From: Actinomycetota bacterium
GTDB lineage: Bacteria > Actinomycetota > Acidimicrobiia > Acidimicrobiales > UBA8592
Assembly: GCA_002715425.1 (NCBI GenBank)
Contig: PAYW01000023.1
Span: forward strand, 1-22,110
Reading direction: 5' to 3'
DNA length: 22,110 nt
Part shown: positions 2,267 through 11,337 of the stretch, piece after piece
How the letters are laid out: each line of letters begins with the position of its first letter
How positions within the stretch are numbered: position 1 is the first letter of the stretch
Translations under genes and position numbers: made by a program
The notes under the pieces: generated by a model
Databases searched by the model: none
Seen by the model: the letters and a program-made list of their open reading frames with translations, nothing else
Told to the model about the DNA's origin: nothing

Positions 2267-3757
2267 ATGAACGCACCGAATATTCTTCTAATAGTCGCAG
2301 ACCAAGAACGTCAACGAGATTGGATTCCTGAAGATTTCTCTCTACCTGCCAGACAACGTCTCATGGACCAAGGGTTGGAATTTACAAAGTATTACACACA
2401 TACATCCCCTTGCTCGCCAAGCCGCGGAACCCTGTTTACGGGTCAATACCTGCCGGTCCATGGAGTTCTGGAAAACTGCATAATGCCGGCAAATGGGGAA
2501 TTATCCACTGACGCCCAAACGCTCGGAAAGCTTTTCCGTTCAAAAGGCTATTGCACCGGCTACAAGGGCAAATGGCATCTTGCGCCGGTGGCTTTTCCAG
2601 ACATGGACGCATATGGGTTCAGTGACTGGGAAGGTAACGATAAAGCATTTTGGGGACAGGCTGGAAGCGGTGTTGAATTTGATGAGCCGATTGCACGTTC
2701 CGCTGCCAAGTGGATACAGGATAGAAAAGACGAGTCAAACCCGTGGTTCTTATCAGTGGGCCTCGTTAATCCGCACGACATCATGTGGTTCCCTATGGAC
2801 CAGCCCTGGTATCAGGAAGAAAACGCTGAAAAGGTCAAAGCATTAAAAGAGCGATATGCGACATATGACTGGGGGCGAGAGGACCCTCTTCCCGCTTTCA
2901 ACCTGCCATACGAGGAATGGATGACGGAGCTTCCGGAGAATTTCGACGATGACTTACATACGAAGCCTGATGTTCATAGAAGGTTCATGCATGAAATGTC
3001 TAGGTCAAATGGGTATTTGGATCCGGCTGACAGGCCGAAATGGCTTCGATTGCTCGATTATTACCTCAAACTTCATCAGATGAGCGATGAGAGCTTGTCA
3101 TTGATCCTCAATGCGTTGGATGAAACCGGGGCATGGGACAATACTGTGGTTATTTTCACTGCTGACCACGGTGACCAGTGTGGATCGCATGGCCTGCGTT
3201 CAAAAGGCCCATGGAATTATGAGGAGACTATGAAAATACCGTTGTATGTCGTTGCGCCAGGTATTACCTCACCAGGAACTGTTACTGATGCGATGATGAG
3301 TCCTGTCGATCTCGCAGCTACTATCTGTGAGCTTGGTGGGATCAATCCGGATGAAGCTGATTTGCCTGGCAGGTCAATGCTTCCATTTTGGGAGAACCCA
3401 TCGCTTAATGGAAGGGACTATGTTCTATTTGCCCAAGATTGGGCATGGTATGACGGCCTGTTGAATACGAGGTATGCAAGTAGAGGCATTTTTGACGGCC
3501 GCTATAAATACTGTCGGTATTTCGGTATCGGAGGATCAAGTACTACGCGAGGTACTCCTATAGAAGGGCCGAAAATCTTCACAGAGGATGCCCACTTTGA
3601 CGATCAGGAACATGAGTTCTATGACCTTCATGAGGACCCTCATGAGTTGGTTAACCTTGCTATGGACCGGAACCGACGAGCAGAAATACGAGAATGGTAT
3701 GAGCGTCTCCGTAAAGCTGAAATAGAAGAATTCGTTTCGCTTCAGGCCAAAACGTGA
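2267..3757 (+). CDS. Type I sulfatase, probably cytosolic
   Basis: A 496-residue alkaline-phosphatase-superfamily sulfatase that should hydrolyse a sulfate ester to an alcohol and sulfate. The formylglycine site is C49 in CSPSRGTLFTGQ, matching the CxPSR rule, so activation by a formylglycine-generating enzyme is expected. Metal-site residues are visible: D12-Q13 near the N-terminus (DQ rather than DD) and D300-H301 in FTADHGD. K100/K102/H104 in YKGKWH, H170 in NPHD and K313 in RSKGPW are further conserved active-site positions. There is no signal peptide: the N-terminus runs directly into the first beta-strand (PNILLIVADQ), as in choline-sulfatase-like cytosolic enzymes, so the substrate must be imported. 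It overlaps the kinase gene by 4 bases (GTGA). A close paralogue lies at 9847-11337. The substrate is not known. Confidence 0.92.
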   Translation: MNAPNILLIVADQERQRDWIPEDFSLPARQRLMDQGLEFTKYYTHTSPCSPSRGTLFTGQYLPVHGVLENCIMPANGELSTDAQTLGKLFRSKGYCTGYKGKWHLAPVAFPDMDAYGFSDWEGNDKAFWGQAGSGVEFDEPIARSAAKWIQDRKDESNPWFLSVGLVNPHDIMWFPMDQPWYQEENAEKVKALKERYATYDWGREDPLPAFNLPYEEWMTELPENFDDDLHTKPDVHRRFMHEMSRSNGYLDPADRPKWLRLLDYYLKLHQMSDESLSLILNALDETGAWDNTVVIFTADHGDQCGSHGLRSKGPWNYEETMKIPLYVVAPGITSPGTVTDAMMSPVDLAATICELGGINPDEADLPGRSMLPFWENPSLNGRDYVLFAQDWAWYDGLLNTRYASRGIFDGRYKYCRYFGIGGSSTTRGTPIEGPKIFTEDAHFDDQEHEFYDLHEDPHELVNLAMDRNRRAEIREWYERLRKAEIEEFVSLQAKT

Positions 3758-4927: not shown

Positions 4928-5539
4928 TTACTGAGATACTGTCTGAGAACTGATTGCTTCGATGAATTTTACGATGCTTTCTCCGCTACCAGGAATTTCA
5001 GCTTGTCGGAAGTGTCTTTCAAAGAACCATCCCATAATAAGACATCGAATGACTTCTTTGAGTTCAGGCTCAGATAGCACTGAGAATTCCCCTGTCCTGG
5101 TTCCGAGTGAAGCTAAAGATTGAAAAGTTTCATCTTGGAAGCTAGCTCTTCGTTGCATCAATTTCTCAAACTCTGGATGAAACCGAGCTTCAAGGGGAAG
5201 GGATGCTAGAAAAGCTGAATGGCCGGGAAAGTCATCAGCGATCTTACGGCTTGATGTTATGAGGTGGTCGAAAGCTTCAACGAGCGTGTCTCTCTCACTC
5301 GCCGAAGACACACTTCCCCAGATCGCATCAGCTGTCTCTTCAAAGACCGCCATATACAAGGTTTCTTTATTTTCATAGTGGTTATAAATGGCGCTGGGAG
5401 CGAGATCTGCTGATTCCGCTATTTTTAAGATGGACGCACCATCGTAGCCTTTGACAGAAAATACGCTTCTTGCAGCATCAAGGATTCGTTGACGTGTTTC
5501 TGCGCTATCTACTCCAGCAGGCCTACCACGCTTCCCCAT
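4928..5539 (-). CDS. TetR-family transcriptional regulator
   Basis: A 203-residue TetR/AcrR-type repressor. The N-terminal DNA-binding domain is clear: TRQRILDAARSVFSVKGYDGASILKIAESADLAPSAIYNHYENKETLY (residues 15-62), with the helix-turn-helix at about 36-55. The C-terminal 140 residues are the all-helical ligand and dimer domain, which is variable and gives no ligand clue. A Shine-Dalgarno AGGA lies 6 bases before the ATG. It follows the permease on the same strand after about 31 bases, so it is probably the last gene of the transporter operon and a good candidate to control it. A candidate operator is the inverted repeat at 9723-9739. A three-base-loop hairpin in the 112-base convergent gap downstream is too weak to call a terminator. 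Confidence 0.93.
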   Translation of the reverse strand: MGKRGRPAGVDSAETRQRILDAARSVFSVKGYDGASILKIAESADLAPSAIYNHYENKETLYMAVFEETADAIWGSVSSASERDTLVEAFDHLITSSRKIADDFPGHSAFLASLPLEARFHPEFEKLMQRRASFQDETFQSLASLGTRTGEFSVLSEPELKEVIRCLIMGWFFERHFRQAEIPGSGESIVKFIEAISSQTVSQ

Positions 5540-5570: not shown

Positions 5571-6536
5571 TTATAGAGAAACAACTTTTCCTCGAGCTTC
5601 TGTATCTTGCCACCGTAAGAACCGTCGTTCCATCATCCCAATGATTGCATTAAATACAAGGGCAAGGCCGGCGAGTATTGTGATTAACCCGATTGCTTTG
5701 CCCATACCGAAGTTATTTGTTTCGTAGAGCAGACGCTGCCCTAAACCGCGTTTAGAGACGATGAACTCTCCAAGTACGACGGCAAGTATCGAATAGATGG
5801 AAGAAAGACGAAGAGCTCCAAATAATGGGCCAAGAATACCTGGAATGACGACAAATCTGAATTTTTGGAATTGAGTTGCACCCATGGAAGTCGCAACAAC
5901 ATCAAGATCTGGGTCTACACCGCTCACTGCAGCCTGAACAGGTATTTGCACAATAAAGAAAACAATTATTGTTGCTAGCGCAACTTTCGATGCAATATCA
6001 ACCCCGTACCAGAGAATCAAGATCGGGGCGAGTGCGATCTTTGGAACAGCATTCGCAAAGATAAGAAAGGGAGACATCACTTTCGCTGCTTTTCTGAAGC
6101 TCCCTAGGAGAAGCCCGACAATAAATCCCGAACCGGATCCAATGACGAAGCCAAGGAGCGCTTCCTGTAATGTCACCCAGAAATCGCCCCAGAACAGTGA
6201 ATCATTCCAAACGTCTTGGAAGAAATCCAACGCTTCGCTGGGTACCCCTTGGAATAGGGGCATAATTTCCGGAAAAAGTTCATAGTCCCAACCGAGGAAA
6301 GAGAATGGGCTCCCTCCTTTGAAAATCCAGCGTGATTCCCACGCCCAAATAATGAGGACGAGGAGAGCTATTCGGATAAATTGGATTGGGAGGTCGATGG
6401 CTGTAAGAATTCGCTTCCATCTTGGCACTTCGACGATAGTTGACATGTCGAAACGTTCTGATTGAACAGTTGACGTTTGAGAATTGTCTGTTTCCTCATT
6501 ATTTGGTTCAGGTGAGGTTATATCAGATGATTTCAT
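5571..6536 (-). CDS. NitT/TauT-type ABC transporter permease
   Basis: An inner-membrane permease of the SsuC/TauC family (BPD_transp_1). I start it at the ATG at 6536, giving 321 residues, because that codon has GGA about 9 bases upstream and overlaps the ATPase end by only 14 bases; longer in-frame starts (to 6599) would overlap by 77 bases and add no domain. About six membrane helices are visible, near residues 50-68, 123-145, 155-177, 182-203, 243-260 and 279-302. The ATPase-coupling (EAA) loop is at 214-232 (VVATSMGATQFQKFRFVVIPG). The N-terminal 35 residues are polar, Glu/Ser/Thr-rich and longer than in E. coli SsuC. It should pair with the ATPase at 6523-7296. Nitrate, sulfonate, pyrimidine or other organic anions are possible substrates for the family. 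Confidence 0.9.
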   Translation of the reverse strand: MKSSDITSPEPNNEETDNSQTSTVQSERFDMSTIVEVPRWKRILTAIDLPIQFIRIALLVLIIWAWESRWIFKGGSPFSFLGWDYELFPEIMPLFQGVPSEALDFFQDVWNDSLFWGDFWVTLQEALLGFVIGSGSGFIVGLLLGSFRKAAKVMSPFLIFANAVPKIALAPILILWYGVDIASKVALATIIVFFIVQIPVQAAVSGVDPDLDVVATSMGATQFQKFRFVVIPGILGPLFGALRLSSIYSILAVVLGEFIVSKRGLGQRLLYETNNFGMGKAIGLITILAGLALVFNAIIGMMERRFLRWQDTEARGKVVSL

Positions 6537-7296
6537 CACGAAGTTCCTTCCATATCCTGTGTTCCGCTTCTTTAAATTTGTCATCGAATCGGAGTTCATC
6601 TATCACTCTTGGCCGTGGTAGATCAATGATCGTATCGCTTTTGATTTGACCAGGTCGAGCAGTCATGACAATAACCCGATCTGCGAGCAAGACGGCTTCT
6701 TCTAGGTCGTGGGTTACGAAGATGACTGAACTTTCCCCTGATCTTTCCCAGAGGTTTATAAATTCTCCTTGAACGGTGAGTCGAGTTTGAGCATCAAGGG
6801 CTCCAAATGGCTCATCCATTAGCCACAAATCTGGGTCAATGGCTAGGGTTCTTGCAATTGCGACTCGTTGGCGCATTCCTTGTGAGAGTTGAGATGGGTA
6901 GGAGTCTTCAAATCCGTCGAGATGCAATAGGGAGATAAGTTCATGGGCTCGTTCTCGCCGCGTAGCTTTGTCTACTCCGTGAATTTGTAATCCCATTTCG
7001 ATATTGCGAAGCGCTGTTCTCCATGGGCTTAATGCCGAACGAGCCAGCATATAGCCAACATCGCGGCTTGGTCCATTGACTTCCGTACCGTTCCGCTTAA
7101 CTGATCCGGCTGTAGGCGGAATCAAACCTGCCAACATGTTAAGTACGGTTGTTTTCCCACAGCCACTGGGACCAACGATAGCTACGAATTGGCCTTTGGG
7201 AATTGCAATATTGATGGTGTCTACGGCGAGGACTGGGTTGTTACCTTCACCACCGAACACTAATGAAACGTTTTCTATGTCGACAGCATTGGCCAT
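6523..7296 (-). CDS. NitT/TauT-type ABC transporter ATPase
   Basis: A 257-residue nucleotide-binding subunit of the SsuB/TauB family that powers import from the cytosolic face. Walker A GPSGCGKTT (42-50), Walker B LWLMDEP (157-163), D-loop GALD (165-168) and H-loop H196 are intact. Two positions differ from the textbook pattern. The Q-loop region reads VGYMLARSALSPW, where aligning the PW pair to SsuB puts Ala85 in place of the usual Gln. The signature reads LSQGM instead of LSGGM. Both may be subfamily traits. A weak AGGA lies 12 bases before the ATG. The gene begins about 40 bases past a strong hairpin that follows the binding-protein gene, so it is probably translated from the same message at a lower level. 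Confidence 0.93.
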   Translation of the reverse strand: MANAVDIENVSLVFGGEGNNPVLAVDTINIAIPKGQFVAIVGPSGCGKTTVLNMLAGLIPPTAGSVKRNGTEVNGPSRDVGYMLARSALSPWRTALRNIEMGLQIHGVDKATRRERAHELISLLHLDGFEDSYPSQLSQGMRQRVAIARTLAIDPDLWLMDEPFGALDAQTRLTVQGEFINLWERSGESSVIFVTHDLEEAVLLADRVIVMTARPGQIKSDTIIDLPRPRVIDELRFDDKFKEAEHRIWKELRDEII

Positions 7297-7395: not shown

Positions 7396-9690
7396 TTATT
7401 CGCAGTCTAGGTCCTGTGCTACCTCATCAGCAGCGAACAGTCGGTCGGTCTTGCCGACATCGACAGAAATCTGGCTGATCGTTTCGATCTGTCCAAATTG
7501 TATGTCACCTGTAGTGCTGAATGCATTTTGGTACTTCTCGATAAGCGCTGGTACCAGCGGGTGGAGAGCTTCTGCTAGACGAGTCTTCGCAATTTCTCCA
7601 GCTTGTTCCGCATTAGCGGGATCCGCTAGCCATTCAATAGCTGCTACAGTTCCTGACTTGTAGGCACAGAGTTCAGCTTGCTTAGCTTCAAATGTGTCCT
7701 TACCAGTCATGTAGACAAGGCCTGGCCAATCAAGTCCAGCAGGGCCTTCGCCTCGTTGGATCGAGAATGGGTTAATGCCTGCTCCGGTCTCTACAGCAAC
7801 AACCTGGAATGGATCGAATGTAACGGTCCAGTCAGTGTCGCCAGATTCTAGACCTGGAAGTGGCTGTAAACCAACAGCTACATAGGTGAAGCACTCTTCA
7901 TCGAGGCCTGCTTCTTGAATAAGGATCCTTGCGAGGTCCTCAGCTGCAGCACCACGAGCAACAACACCGACGTTGGTGCAGTCAAGCGCTTCCATGGCTT
8001 CTTGCCAGTCCATACCTGAAGTTATGCCATTTGCTTCTGCAAAGTCAGCATCGACAATGACATCAAATAGGTTATAGAGCAATGTTTCCATGAACACAAC
8101 AACTTCGAGGCCATTGTTAAGCAATGGGAAGACGTTGTTGTAAATGTTCGCAGCGAAGTCAGCATCACCGGATGCAAGAGCAGCTGCGGTCTCAGGTCCA
8201 CTACCGATCTGGACACACTCAAGTGTGAGGTTCCTCTCAGCGTATAGTCCTGCCTCTACTGCTATCCACTGTGGTAGTGAAGCAATTGATGGAGCACAAG
8301 TGGTACTCATTGTGACCATTTCAGGAAGCTTATTAAGTCCTATACCTGCTGGTTCTGGCGCTGGAGCTGCCTGTGTTGGCGCTGCACCGGATTCGAAGGT
8401 TAGTTCTTCTACAACTTGTTGGACACCGTCAGCGTCGTATTCATACACTTCGTAAATACCTGTTCCTGGTTCACCGACATCGAGGAAATCGATAACGCCG
8501 GAAGCGCCGTCGTAGTCAATGTCAGCTCCAGTTGCGAGCAGGTCTTTACATTCAGCGAATGTTGAACACTTTTCACCGTCACGGCTTACCGCAACCATTT
8601 GGGCGGCAATGTCAGCAGAATTGTTTGATCCTGCGGCTTCAGCAGCAAGAGCGATCAGAATCGCACAGTCATATGACTGAGCGGAGAAGATCGTCGATAC
8701 GTCAGGAGCAAACTCAGCGAACGCACCCGGGAAGAATGCGGCGCCAGTTGAGGGAGCAGCAGCTGGCTGCGTTCCCTTAATACCTGAACCAATGCTTGGG
8801 TTGGCTTCATCAATAAGCGCACCAAGTTCTCCGGTTGCCATACCATCGGTGATGTAAATCTGGATGTCAGCAGGGCCTGCACCTTGCTCGATCATGGCTT
8901 GAATTAACTGAACACCTTCTTCGAAGGCAACAATTACGACAGCGTCAGGACCGGAAGCAATTACGTCAGCTACCACATCATCGAAGCTTGTGGATTCTGG
9001 AGCGTAAGGCTCATTGTAAACGATGGTTCCACCACCGGCTGCAACTGCAGGTTCAAATTCGGCGTTAAAACCGACACCATAGTCATCTGCACGGCTCACA
9101 ACAGCCACGTTGGTGTACCCGTCACCGAGTACCACGTTGGCTAGAGCTGGAGCTTGCAGGTCATCGGATGGTGCTGTACGGAAGTAGTATCCGTCGTCAC
9201 CAGATGTACCCAAACCAGCGGCCGTGTTTGATGGTGAACACTGTGTCACACCAGCGGAAGTAATCTTTTCGATTACCGAACCGGTAATACCTGAAGCTGC
9301 AGCACCAACAATGGCATTCACATTTTCAGTCAACAACCGGTCAACCGTAGTATTGGCGATATCAGGATCTGTACCCGAATCACCCTTTGTTAAAGTAACG
9401 TCAGCGCCATTGACACCACCAGCGGCGTTAATGTCACGTATAGCCATATCAACTGCCAAGACAAGCGGTTCTGACAAAAATGCCAGTTGGCCGGTCTCAG
9501 GTAGCAACGTTCCGATATTTAGCCCTTCAGCAGATCCTGCGTCGCTTGCTTCGCTAGAGCTTTCGCTAGAGCTGGCAGATGCGTCAGAACCACTACTGGA
9601 AGAGCTGTCATCGTCATCGCCACAAGCTGCGGCGACAAGAACGAAAGCAAACAATACGGCTAGAAGTCTTAATAGACGTCTATTCCTCAT
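7396..9690 (-). CDS. Two-module solute-binding lipoprotein (LivJ-type + NMT1/SsuA-type)
   Basis: A 764-residue exported lipoprotein. Residues 1-22 are a signal peptide (RRLLRLL, hydrophobic core, AAAC), with C23 as the lipidation site, and a Ser/Asp/Ala-rich tether runs to about 56. Residues 57-430 are a complete type I binding module like LivJ/amide-binding proteins: GTLLPETGQLAF, AVDMAIRDINAAGGVNG, IVGAAASG, YYFRTAPSD, VVSRADDYGVG. An Ala/Pro linker (432-450) leads to residues 455-764, a type II module of the NMT1/SsuA/TauA kind: WIAVEAGLYAERNLTLECV, GSGPETAAALASGDADFA, GLESGDTDWTV. Each half has about the length of a whole binding protein. The reading frame is open throughout, with no sign of a frameshift. 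A Shine-Dalgarno GAGGGG (complement of 9698-9703) supports the start. Only NitT/TauT-type partners follow; no LivH/M/G/F is in the window. The ligands are unknown. Confidence 0.9.
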   Translation of the reverse strand: MRNRRLLRLLAVLFAFVLVAAACGDDDDSSSSSGSDASASSSESSSEASDAGSAEGLNIGTLLPETGQLAFLSEPLVLAVDMAIRDINAAGGVNGADVTLTKGDSGTDPDIANTTVDRLLTENVNAIVGAAASGITGSVIEKITSAGVTQCSPSNTAAGLGTSGDDGYYFRTAPSDDLQAPALANVVLGDGYTNVAVVSRADDYGVGFNAEFEPAVAAGGGTIVYNEPYAPESTSFDDVVADVIASGPDAVVIVAFEEGVQLIQAMIEQGAGPADIQIYITDGMATGELGALIDEANPSIGSGIKGTQPAAAPSTGAAFFPGAFAEFAPDVSTIFSAQSYDCAILIALAAEAAGSNNSADIAAQMVAVSRDGEKCSTFAECKDLLATGADIDYDGASGVIDFLDVGEPGTGIYEVYEYDADGVQQVVEELTFESGAAPTQAAPAPEPAGIGLNKLPEMVTMSTTCAPSIASLPQWIAVEAGLYAERNLTLECVQIGSGPETAAALASGDADFAANIYNNVFPLLNNGLEVVVFMETLLYNLFDVIVDADFAEANGITSGMDWQEAMEALDCTNVGVVARGAAAEDLARILIQEAGLDEECFTYVAVGLQPLPGLESGDTDWTVTFDPFQVVAVETGAGINPFSIQRGEGPAGLDWPGLVYMTGKDTFEAKQAELCAYKSGTVAAIEWLADPANAEQAGEIAKTRLAEALHPLVPALIEKYQNAFSTTGDIQFGQIETISQISVDVGKTDRLFAADEVAQDLDCE

Positions 9691-9846: not shown

Positions 9847-11337
9847 CTAGGCAATTGGGGCATAATCGACCTCTTCGATTGCCCTTAATTCATCAAATTT
9901 CTGGCGGAGTTCATTTCTCCGACTTCGATCCATAGCTAAATTAACGAGTTCATGGGGATCTTCTTGTAGGTCGTACCATTCGTGGTCATGGTCCTCGAAT
10001 GGGCTGTCAACATCGAACTGGATCGTTCCTGAAAGTGGAACTCCGGCGGCGTCGGCGCCACCGCCAACACCATAGTATCTACAGTATTTGTAGCGACCGT
10101 CAAAAATACCTGCACTGGCGTATCTTGTATGTTCCACCCCTTTATACCAAGGCCATTGTTGGGAGAAAAGCACGTAATCGCGTATCTTGGCATCTAAATC
10201 GTCAAAGAATGGTGAAAGACTTTCTCCAACTAGCCCAGGGTAATCGCTGGGATTGACGCCGCCGAGCTCTGCAATGGTTCGGGCCAGGTCAACATGGCAT
10301 GCTAAAGAATTTGTTTTGGTTCCGGCTTCGGTTTTCCCTGGAATTTTCAGATACAGGGGGATCCGCATTGTTTCCTGATAATTCCAGGGCCCTTTTGAGC
10401 GGAGACCGTGCGATCCGACTTGATCTCCATGGTCGGAAGTAAAGATAATTATTGTGTCATCCCAGACATTGAGGTCATCGAGAGTTTTGAATATCCGCAT
10501 CATTTCGGAATCATTAAGTTCGTGCAATTTGACGTAGTAGTCGAGATAGCGGAGCCATAAGTATTCATCTTCTCGATTCATAGTTCCCGGTGCCCCCCAT
10601 TTGAGCATTGCATGCATCCATCTTCTGTGAACATCCGGTTTTGTATGGAGGTCGTCGTGGAAGTTAGCTGGAAGTTCCGTAAACCACTCATCCAATGCGT
10701 GCGCAAAAGGAGGAAAATTATCTTCACGACCCCAATCTCTATCCTTGAGTCGCTCTCGCACATGATCGGTTTCTTCTTTGTTATCGACTTGCCACCATGG
10801 CTGGTCACACGGAAACCACATGATGTCATGAGGGTTGACGAATGCCGTCGTCAAAAACCAAGGGTCTCCTGAAGTCGCGTGTTCTTCTAGCCAAGTAATA
10901 GTCTGATCGGTTATCGGCTCATCATATTCTGTTCCAGTTCCTGGAAGTCCCCACCAAGCGGAGTCATTCCCCTCCCAGTCACTAAAGCCGTATTTCTCCA
11001 TCTCTGGATACCGCTGATTCTGTAAATGCCACTTACCTTTATACGCAGTTTTATATCCTTGTTCTCTCAGCATATGGCCAAGAGTGGCGGTCGAGGTAGG
11101 AAGATTGGTGTTCTCTGGCCCTGTTGAGTTTTCTAGCACTCCATGCTGGAGCATGTATTGCCCTGTAAACAAAGTCGCCCGAGATGGGCTACAGGGCGAG
11201 GTGTGCGTGTAATAGTTCGTAAATTCTAACCCTTCATCGAGCAGACGTTGGCGGGCGGGCAGGTCGACTCCTGCTGGAAGCCAATCACGCTGTCGTTCTT
11301 GATCTGAAACAATAAGGAGAATATTGGGTTTAGTCAT
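9847..11337 (-). CDS. Type I sulfatase, paralogue of the one at 2267-3757
   Basis: A 496-residue sulfatase of the same subfamily and exactly the same length as its paralogue; 48 of the first 60 residues are identical by direct comparison. The formylglycine site is C49 in CSPSRATLFTGQ. D12-Q13 and D302-H303 (FTSDHGD) are metal-site residues, with K100/K102/H104 (YKGKWH), H170 (NPHD) and K315 (RSKGPW) also conserved. There is no signal peptide, so it should act in the cytosol. Divergence lies mainly in the middle (about 183-215 and 243-257) and near 405-440, which may tune substrate choice. There is no Shine-Dalgarno; a TAGGTT hexamer ends 6 bases before the ATG. It lies immediately upstream of the transporter operon on the same strand (156-base gap). 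The substrate is unknown; phosphonate or phosphate ester hydrolysis cannot be excluded in this superfamily. Confidence 0.92.
   Translation of the reverse strand: MTKPNILLIVSDQERQRDWLPAGVDLPARQRLLDEGLEFTNYYTHTSPCSPSRATLFTGQYMLQHGVLENSTGPENTNLPTSTATLGHMLREQGYKTAYKGKWHLQNQRYPEMEKYGFSDWEGNDSAWWGLPGTGTEYDEPITDQTITWLEEHATSGDPWFLTTAFVNPHDIMWFPCDQPWWQVDNKEETDHVRERLKDRDWGREDNFPPFAHALDEWFTELPANFHDDLHTKPDVHRRWMHAMLKWGAPGTMNREDEYLWLRYLDYYVKLHELNDSEMMRIFKTLDDLNVWDDTIIIFTSDHGDQVGSHGLRSKGPWNYQETMRIPLYLKIPGKTEAGTKTNSLACHVDLARTIAELGGVNPSDYPGLVGESLSPFFDDLDAKIRDYVLFSQQWPWYKGVEHTRYASAGIFDGRYKYCRYYGVGGGADAAGVPLSGTIQFDVDSPFEDHDHEWYDLQEDPHELVNLAMDRSRRNELRQKFDELRAIEEVDYAPIA

Follow-up and report, generated by a model that had tools for sequence, protein, structure and literature searches.

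A receptor of an ATP-binding cassette (ABC) importer normally serves a single permease, and the two are encoded side by side. Two kinds of receptor matter here: the type I HAAT receptors LivJ and LivK (Peripla_BP_6; LivK 3td9, LivJ 4gnr and Atu2422 3ip5), and the type II receptors SsuA, TauA and NrtA together with pyrimidine-precursor receptors (NMT1 families; 2x26, 6ssy, 2g29 and 3ix1). In a 22,110-nucleotide stretch of Acidimicrobiales DNA (contig PAYW01000023.1 of assembly GCA_002715425.1, hereafter the window) one gene encodes a 764-residue lipoprotein in which a LivJ-type module (N) stands in front of an SsuA-like module (C). The ionotropic glutamate receptors have the same order, their amino-terminal domain being of type I and their ligand-binding domain of type II. 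The nearest known system is the GlnPQ tandem of the Gram-positive Lactococcus, which likewise has two tandem substrate-binding domains and a flexible linker (PMC8025302). In GlnPQ both domains are attached to the permease of a single importer, whereas here two different folds share a lipid anchor and the permease genes are separate. The reading that we favor, at slightly less than an even chance, is that the window lipoprotein carries two independent binding proteins on a shared lipid anchor and that each of them works with a separate importer, N serving an orphan LivHMGF importer in trans.

The two-module makeup of the lipoprotein is borne out by Pfam, AlphaFold and structure comparison. A sequence-only reading of this DNA had proposed two complete binding-protein folds behind one lipobox and called for a domain search and structure prediction of both halves; these agree with it. 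N matches the Peripla_BP_6 profile above the gathering score and the type I fold spans the whole module, while C has an NMT1-type profile match and a type II fold across its whole length. By profile and fold each half is an ordinary member of its family. N resembles LivJ and LivK by profile, yet it is not stand-alone, does not adjoin LivHMGF genes here, and falls short of the curated cut-offs set for Liv and urea receptors in NCBIfam. The label UrtA (urea receptor) was not adopted for N, since the urea models match it weakly. C is close to the SsuA, TauA and NrtA group but has a foreign type I module in front. Its 311 residues form one ordered domain whose secondary structure is that of a type II receptor from end to end, without an inserted pore domain. 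The open reading frame (ORF) stops after it, and the permease is a separate gene with no covalent link to the receptor. The linker between the halves is predicted to be disordered, and would permit separate docking of N and C. A further protein, P0129 (535 aa), is like the window protein in having a C homologue behind another binding module. The partner there is an OpuAC (glycine-betaine-type) domain; the match covers only positions 81-257 of the 257 in the profile, and the beginning of the domain may be missing.

Foldseek gave long two-domain alignments (729-841 columns) of the window protein with ionotropic glutamate receptors, where a LivJ-like amino-terminal domain also precedes the ligand-binding domain. 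There is no channel here, however, and these alignments have root-mean-square deviations of 15-27 Å, so that the order alone is shared, presumably through convergence. Both domains of the glutamate receptors derive from bacterial binding proteins by fusions, according to PMC3483616. The sequence-only reading knew of no characterised protein with this order. The glutamate receptors do share it, but no description of a bacterial case was found: neither a fusion of type I and type II receptors in bacteria nor a shared receptor cassette appears in the titles and abstract openings of the open-access articles listed by searches of PubMed Central, a scope outside which subscription journals and preprints lie.

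The fusion is present in other Acidimicrobiales; the earlier reading had suggested looking for it in other Acidimicrobiia genomes. In a homologue search 7996 sequences were scored and 3134 passed E = 0.001. Among the 120 listed, classed by BLASTP with the modules, 45 are N+C, 25 are tandem N+N, 12 carry N behind another part (X+N), three are N+B2 (B2 being a HAAT receptor) and two are N+Peripla_BP_4. The other 33 are single N or unclassed, and include P0077 (SHOCT) and P0052 (N+C with an end that diverges from C). The N+C architecture recurs in proteins with as little as 60% identity in C, and the contigs that bear it reach 902 kb.

In the nearest genus (18 genomes, G001-G018, where the evidence is mostly metagenome-assembled and contigs break at N) N precedes three receptors: C, B2 and a Peripla_BP_4 receptor. 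The N+B2 locus is found in G002, G015 and G018 (cut in G018, with the end of N present), next to a fused LivH-LivM-LivG permease-ATPase and a fusion of a major facilitator superfamily (MFS) transporter with LivF (Pfam on G002). B2 has its own acidic leader and no N in G003, G008, G009, G010 and G014; the loci of G001 and G017 (L203 and L204), cut at the contig start, have the acidic leader of stand-alone B2 and look N-less. The Peripla_BP_4 receptor marks a third locus, where the end of N lies ahead of it in G008 (cut), as also in P0056 and P0060, and where G011 has this receptor alone. An Rbs-type ATPase and permease beside the Peripla_BP_4 receptor were seen only in G009, where the receptor is without N. 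Contig ends at the N borders overlap exactly between loci within a genome, by 132 and 90 bases in G015 and by 126 in G002, which makes N a within-genome repeat in at least G002 and G015. In G014 a 55-base overlap joins both halves of its own N+C gene.

Two observations on these loci stand by themselves. At the B2 locus the MFS transporter-LivF ATPase fusion (L129:8191-10398) adjoins the LivH-LivM-LivG fusion (L129:5359-8190), an arrangement seen in several genomes of the genus. At L196:9241-10794 a Peripla_BP_4 receptor is extended at its N terminus by about 180 residues that match neither N nor any Pfam family, and its gene is divergent from an Rbs-type ATPase and permease.

The amino acid identity of N tracks lineage rather than partner. 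P0044 (N+C) and P0060 (N+Peripla_BP_4) have identical N modules (100%), P0047 (N+C) is 99% identical to L129 (N+B2) and P0041 (N+C) 96% to P0077 (SHOCT+N), whereas P0001 and P0040, both N+C, share only 79%. On a tree of 74 N modules (omitting P0003-P0027 as near-copies of the window and P0059, whose tail is unlike any partner, and taking only six from P0084-P0121) the labels change ten times for N+C, three times for N+B2 and twice for the more coherent X+N. Approximately unbiased tests, made on a quick tree with groups chosen after the identity table was known, reject a single clade of N+C (log-likelihood reduced by 337) and of N+B2 (reduced by 150).

In other Actinobacteria N usually stands alone, near LivF and LivG genes. 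We read 75 non-fusion loci (L050-L124) taken from the best 80 of 538, and in 67 of these a homologue of LivF or LivG lies within 5 kb of N, convergent in 63. The wider sample comprised 298 genomes of the order, with N called at E 1e-60 and LivH defined as the neighbor of stand-alone N in UBA10347. N is present in 64, LivH in 86 and both in 60, such that LivH occurs in 60 of 64 genomes with N and 26 of 234 without it (figures uncorrected for kinship). Seven of the 26 are members of the nearest genus with N broken or absent. Among the 56 genomes outside the genus that have both, N and LivH are no more than 10 kb apart in 43 and sit on separate contigs in 11 of the remaining 13. Given this co-occurrence and proximity, N probably began as the receptor of this Liv importer.

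In the nearest genus the importer lacks a recognisable N beside it. A LivH orthologue (57-63% identity) is present in 15 of the 18 genomes and was not seen in G006, G013 and G016. In the 14 of these 15 loci that were read (G005 excepted) BLASTP found no homologue of N, B2, C or Peripla_BP_4. A divergent amtB gene lies beside LivH in 14 of 14, in the place that N holds in UBA10347 (L253), with glnD behind amtB in all 13 loci that reach that far and cpn60 downstream in all ten that reach that side (Pfam identities from L244). A Pfam scan of 18 neighboring ORFs from five loci gave AmtB, GlnD, chaperonin, NUDIX, chlorite dismutase and other enzymes, one ORF without a family and one binding protein, Peripla_BP_2 (L248). 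The orphan permeases and ATPases match Liv or Urt models with scores under the curated cut-offs. Since no stand-alone N gene was seen across the 18 genomes, the cassette seems to be the only form in which the natural receptor of the orphan importer has survived. The sequence-only reading had seen no obvious LivH/M partner for N; this stands within the window, where no LivHMGF genes adjoin N, but a candidate lies elsewhere in the genomes of the relatives.

The N pocket is well kept. Residues S79, S100, N101, T102, F202, E204 and D228 (module numbering) are invariant in 100 N modules, many of them near-copies (P0001-P0083, six further proteins and six loci, leaving out more distant tandems), and they hold across every fusion class compared. 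Position 150 is Tyr or Trp, and is Y150 in the window. In HMMER alignments the pocket positions fall on Ser, Thr, Tyr and acidic residues of the LivJ-type proteins 4gnr and 3ipc, which we take to be ligand contacts there. These LivJ-type positions make an amino acid, or a nitrogen compound resembling one, the probable ligand of N, and this would fit an importer beside amtB.

We can now set out the mechanism that we favor. C would dock on the adjacent SsuB/SsuC-type importer, while N, as the displaced receptor of the Liv-type (HAAT) LivHMGF encoded elsewhere beside amtB, would dock on that importer in trans. The leader and N would have replaced the 5' end of several receptor genes, namely those of C, B2 and the Peripla_BP_4 receptor, with recombination keeping the N copies alike within a lineage. 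Any cassette-bearing locus, once expressed, would then also supply the receptor of the orphan importer. Independence of the halves is the default expectation, as the two domains of the GlnPQ tandem bind independently (PMC8025302). A bolder version, which we hold only tentatively, is that marine Acidimicrobiales stripped a Liv-type importer of its receptor gene and spread this gene as a homogenised, exchangeable N-terminal cassette over unrelated receptors and surface proteins. Several hub lipoproteins would then feed one orphan permease in trans, coupling a nitrogen importer to whichever nutrient locus is expressed.

A number of observations weigh against the trans-docking mechanism. Nineteen genomes outside the genus have LivH without N (E 1e-60), and G181 (71% complete), also outside it, has LivHMGF with no N beside it; a receptor-less Liv operon is not unique to genomes with the cassette. 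Co-occurrence within the genus is weak. N was seen in 10 of the 18 genomes (whole or as an edge fragment, at least 76% identity), nine of which have LivH, and six of the eight without N have LivH too. In three of those six (G005, G009 and G017) C is at a contig edge and N may be lost there, while G007, G010 and G011 (76-84% complete) have LivH with neither N nor C seen. Conversely G006 (72% complete) has N+C, and a LivH orthologue was not seen. Assemblers break at N, and missing N in incomplete genomes of the genus may reflect this. A 364-aa ORF follows LivF in L248, where it is the Peripla_BP_2 protein, a receptor of another kind, and in L256; the Pfam scan covered only 18 ORFs, from five of the 14 loci. 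The C gene of G015 (L137) is followed directly by TetR, without SsuB or SsuC. The X+N proteins and those with SHOCT and a transmembrane helix ahead of N also fit a non-transport role. Finally, the orphan operon is known from the genomes of relatives, from which its presence in the window's own genome is extrapolated, and the ligand classes, the docking in trans and the independence of the two halves are likewise inferences.

It is unlikely that N is an accessory module that captures a ligand and relays it to C, or senses it and modulates C and SsuBC. The covalent tether and the conserved pocket positions would suit such a role, and relay to the second domain was among the options of the sequence-only reading. 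A cassette found up to 100% identical on unrelated receptors (P0044 and P0060; P0047 and L129 at 99%) is, however, not adapted to C. The two modules also have discordant histories. Across the 55 pairs formed by 11 of 46 N+C proteins, picked as diverged ones, identity in N does not correlate with identity in C (Spearman -0.10). The pair P0035 and P0039 is 98% identical in C and 84% in N, and the pair P0035 and P0043 60% in C and 99% in N. The independent binding reported for GlnPQ (PMC8025302) likewise argues against relay.

We also think it doubtful that N is a structural or assembly module (for oligomerisation or envelope spacing) that no longer feeds an importer, like the amino-terminal domain of ionotropic glutamate receptors. 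The shared fold order speaks for it, as does the loose way in which N and the orphan LivH track each other within the genus, and N is attached to proteins other than receptors and occurs in tandem (25 of the 120 listed homologues). Yet a spacer would not need pocket positions that are invariant in every fusion class. The non-receptor partners are of two kinds. In P0061-P0072 and L130:7773-10235 N is at the C-terminal end of lipoprotein-like proteins, whose N-terminal X part has repeats of a Cys-containing motif, DELWESC...ACDELFWNSPSGSEYEALGAC. Those scanned gave no clear Pfam family for this part, and in L130, the sole locus read, nothing beside X+N was recognised as an importer gene. P0077, on a single 2.2-kb contig, has two SHOCT repeats and a hydrophobic helix before N and is unlike a lipoprotein.

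We consider it improbable that the cassette arose largely passively, by recombination between receptor genes whose leaders are alike, and is simply tolerated ahead of a receptor. In N the DNA of the window is 92-97% identical to that of G004. Identity falls to 72-88% in C, the sulfatase and the intergenic stretch, the step lying at the linker. The start of the leader lies inside the low-divergence block (95%) and the spacer is lower (82%). Synonymous divergence between the same pair is 0.20 in N against 0.62 in C, 0.77 in SsuB, 0.63 in SsuC and 1.51 in the upstream sulfatase, and the values from G001 are 0.13 for N and 0.47 for the sulfatase. Purifying selection alone was rejected as the cause of N conservation in these two pairs, given the low synonymous divergence of N. 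This contrast with the flanks points to recombination, beyond selection, keeping N copies alike within a lineage. Against G006 the dip is absent: its N is 68-79% identical to that of the window at the DNA level and no better kept than the rest (synonymous divergence 1.08 in N, 0.79 in C, 0.91 in SsuB and 1.16 in SsuC). The low-divergence block over leader start and N, against G004 and G001, fits passive spread, as do the variable occurrence of N at the B2 and Peripla_BP_4 loci and the tandems, whose two copies are at least 99% identical in 17 of 25 proteins (97-98% in two and about 68-70% in six). The ratio of nonsynonymous to synonymous divergence (dN/dS) of N, however, is 0.08-0.18 in six comparisons, which indicates that purifying selection acts on N as well, and the pocket positions are invariant. 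Tandems with 99-100% identical copies include P0048-P0051, P0084-P0086, P0106 and others, P0106 lying on a contig of 2.56 Mb.

That both halves feed the single SsuBC importer, giving it two substrates as in GlnPQ, is very improbable, though the sequence-only reading had offered it. Both modules do adjoin SsuBC, and GlnPQ does have two tandem domains on one importer (PMC8025302). Against this, N and C come from different importer families, N+B2 adjoins Liv-type permeases, and there is an orphan permease set of the same lineage as N, while in G015 N+C has no SsuBC beside it. More generally, a nearly identical N is also borne by other proteins, among them receptors that belong to two further Pfam families; the cassette is therefore adapted to neither C nor SsuBC, and neither relay nor a two-substrate importer is favored. 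Least credible of all is a chimeric assembly across the repeated module, which we weighed seriously because N is a near-exact repeat and contigs end at its borders in this genus, overlapping exactly by 55-132 bases, and which we rejected on the recurrence of N+C (45 of the 120 listed homologues, 60% identity in C, contigs to 902 kb) and on equal synteny across separate genomes.

The sequence-only reading was right that SsuB/SsuC-type parts alone follow the fusion gene in the window (Table 1). The ATPase and permease ORFs overlap by 77 bases (6523-6599), and the permease start may be further in. G004 and G006 have the full gene order kynureninase, sulfatase, N+C, SsuB, SsuC, TetR, and it is partly seen in ten more genomes (G001, G002, G003, G005, G008, G009, G013, G014, G015 and G017), whose partial loci are often cut at or near N. 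To the question whether NitT/TauT permeases always neighbor the fusion the answer is nearly always, G015 being the exception. In L139 (G001 C27) the C gene is split into two ORFs (147 and 98 aa), either an interrupted gene or a contig error, and a second TetR gene, absent from the window, stands beside the first in L131 (G009), L132 (G013), L133 (G014) and L136 (G003).

The two sulfatases of the window, on opposite strands and both with the CSPSR motif and no visible leader, flank the locus. In relatives too one is the upstream neighbor and the other lies on the far side. From these cytosolic-looking enzymes the ligand of C is plausibly a sulfate ester or sulfonate. Kynureninase, CoA-transferase III, Rieske oxygenase and acyl-CoA ligase genes lie near them, and the region is perhaps a catabolic island for a sulfated compound.

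Table 1. Coordinates of the lipoprotein gene, its parts and its neighbors in the window. pLDDT, predicted local distance difference test.
Feature	Position	Strand	Basis
Two-module substrate-binding lipoprotein, 764 aa	7396..9690	-	
Signal peptide and lipobox, residues 1-23; predicted lipidated Cys23, AAAC motif	9622..9690	-	sequence
Ser/Asp-rich spacer, residues 24-54, low pLDDT	9529..9621	-	
N cassette, type I LivJ/HAAT binding module, residues 55-433	8392..9528	-	
Ala/Pro linker, residues 434-453; end of the low-divergence block common with G004	8332..8391	-	
C module, type II NMT1/SsuA-like binding module, residues 454-764	7399..8331	-	
ABC ATPase, NitT/TauT type (SsuB/SaoA-like), probable C partner	6523..7296	-	
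ABC permease, BPD_transp_1 (SsuC/SaoP-like), probable C partner	5571..6599	-	
TetR-type regulator, end of gene run	4928..5539	-	
Sulfatase, CSPSR motif, no leader seen; upstream of the lipoprotein gene	9847..11337	-	
Second sulfatase, 57% identical to that at 9847..11337	2267..3757	+	

N behaves as a plug-in receptor domain, found before receptors of three Pfam families in one genus with its copies kept alike, and the importer from which it came seems to have lost its own receptor gene. Repeats of the cassette would explain why assemblies break exactly at N in these genomes. The lipoprotein is a bacterial example of the fold order that underlies the ionotropic glutamate receptors. If docking in trans is true, annotation of importer substrates by gene neighborhood fails in such cases, and the effect on uptake of tethering two receptors of different fold would be directly testable.
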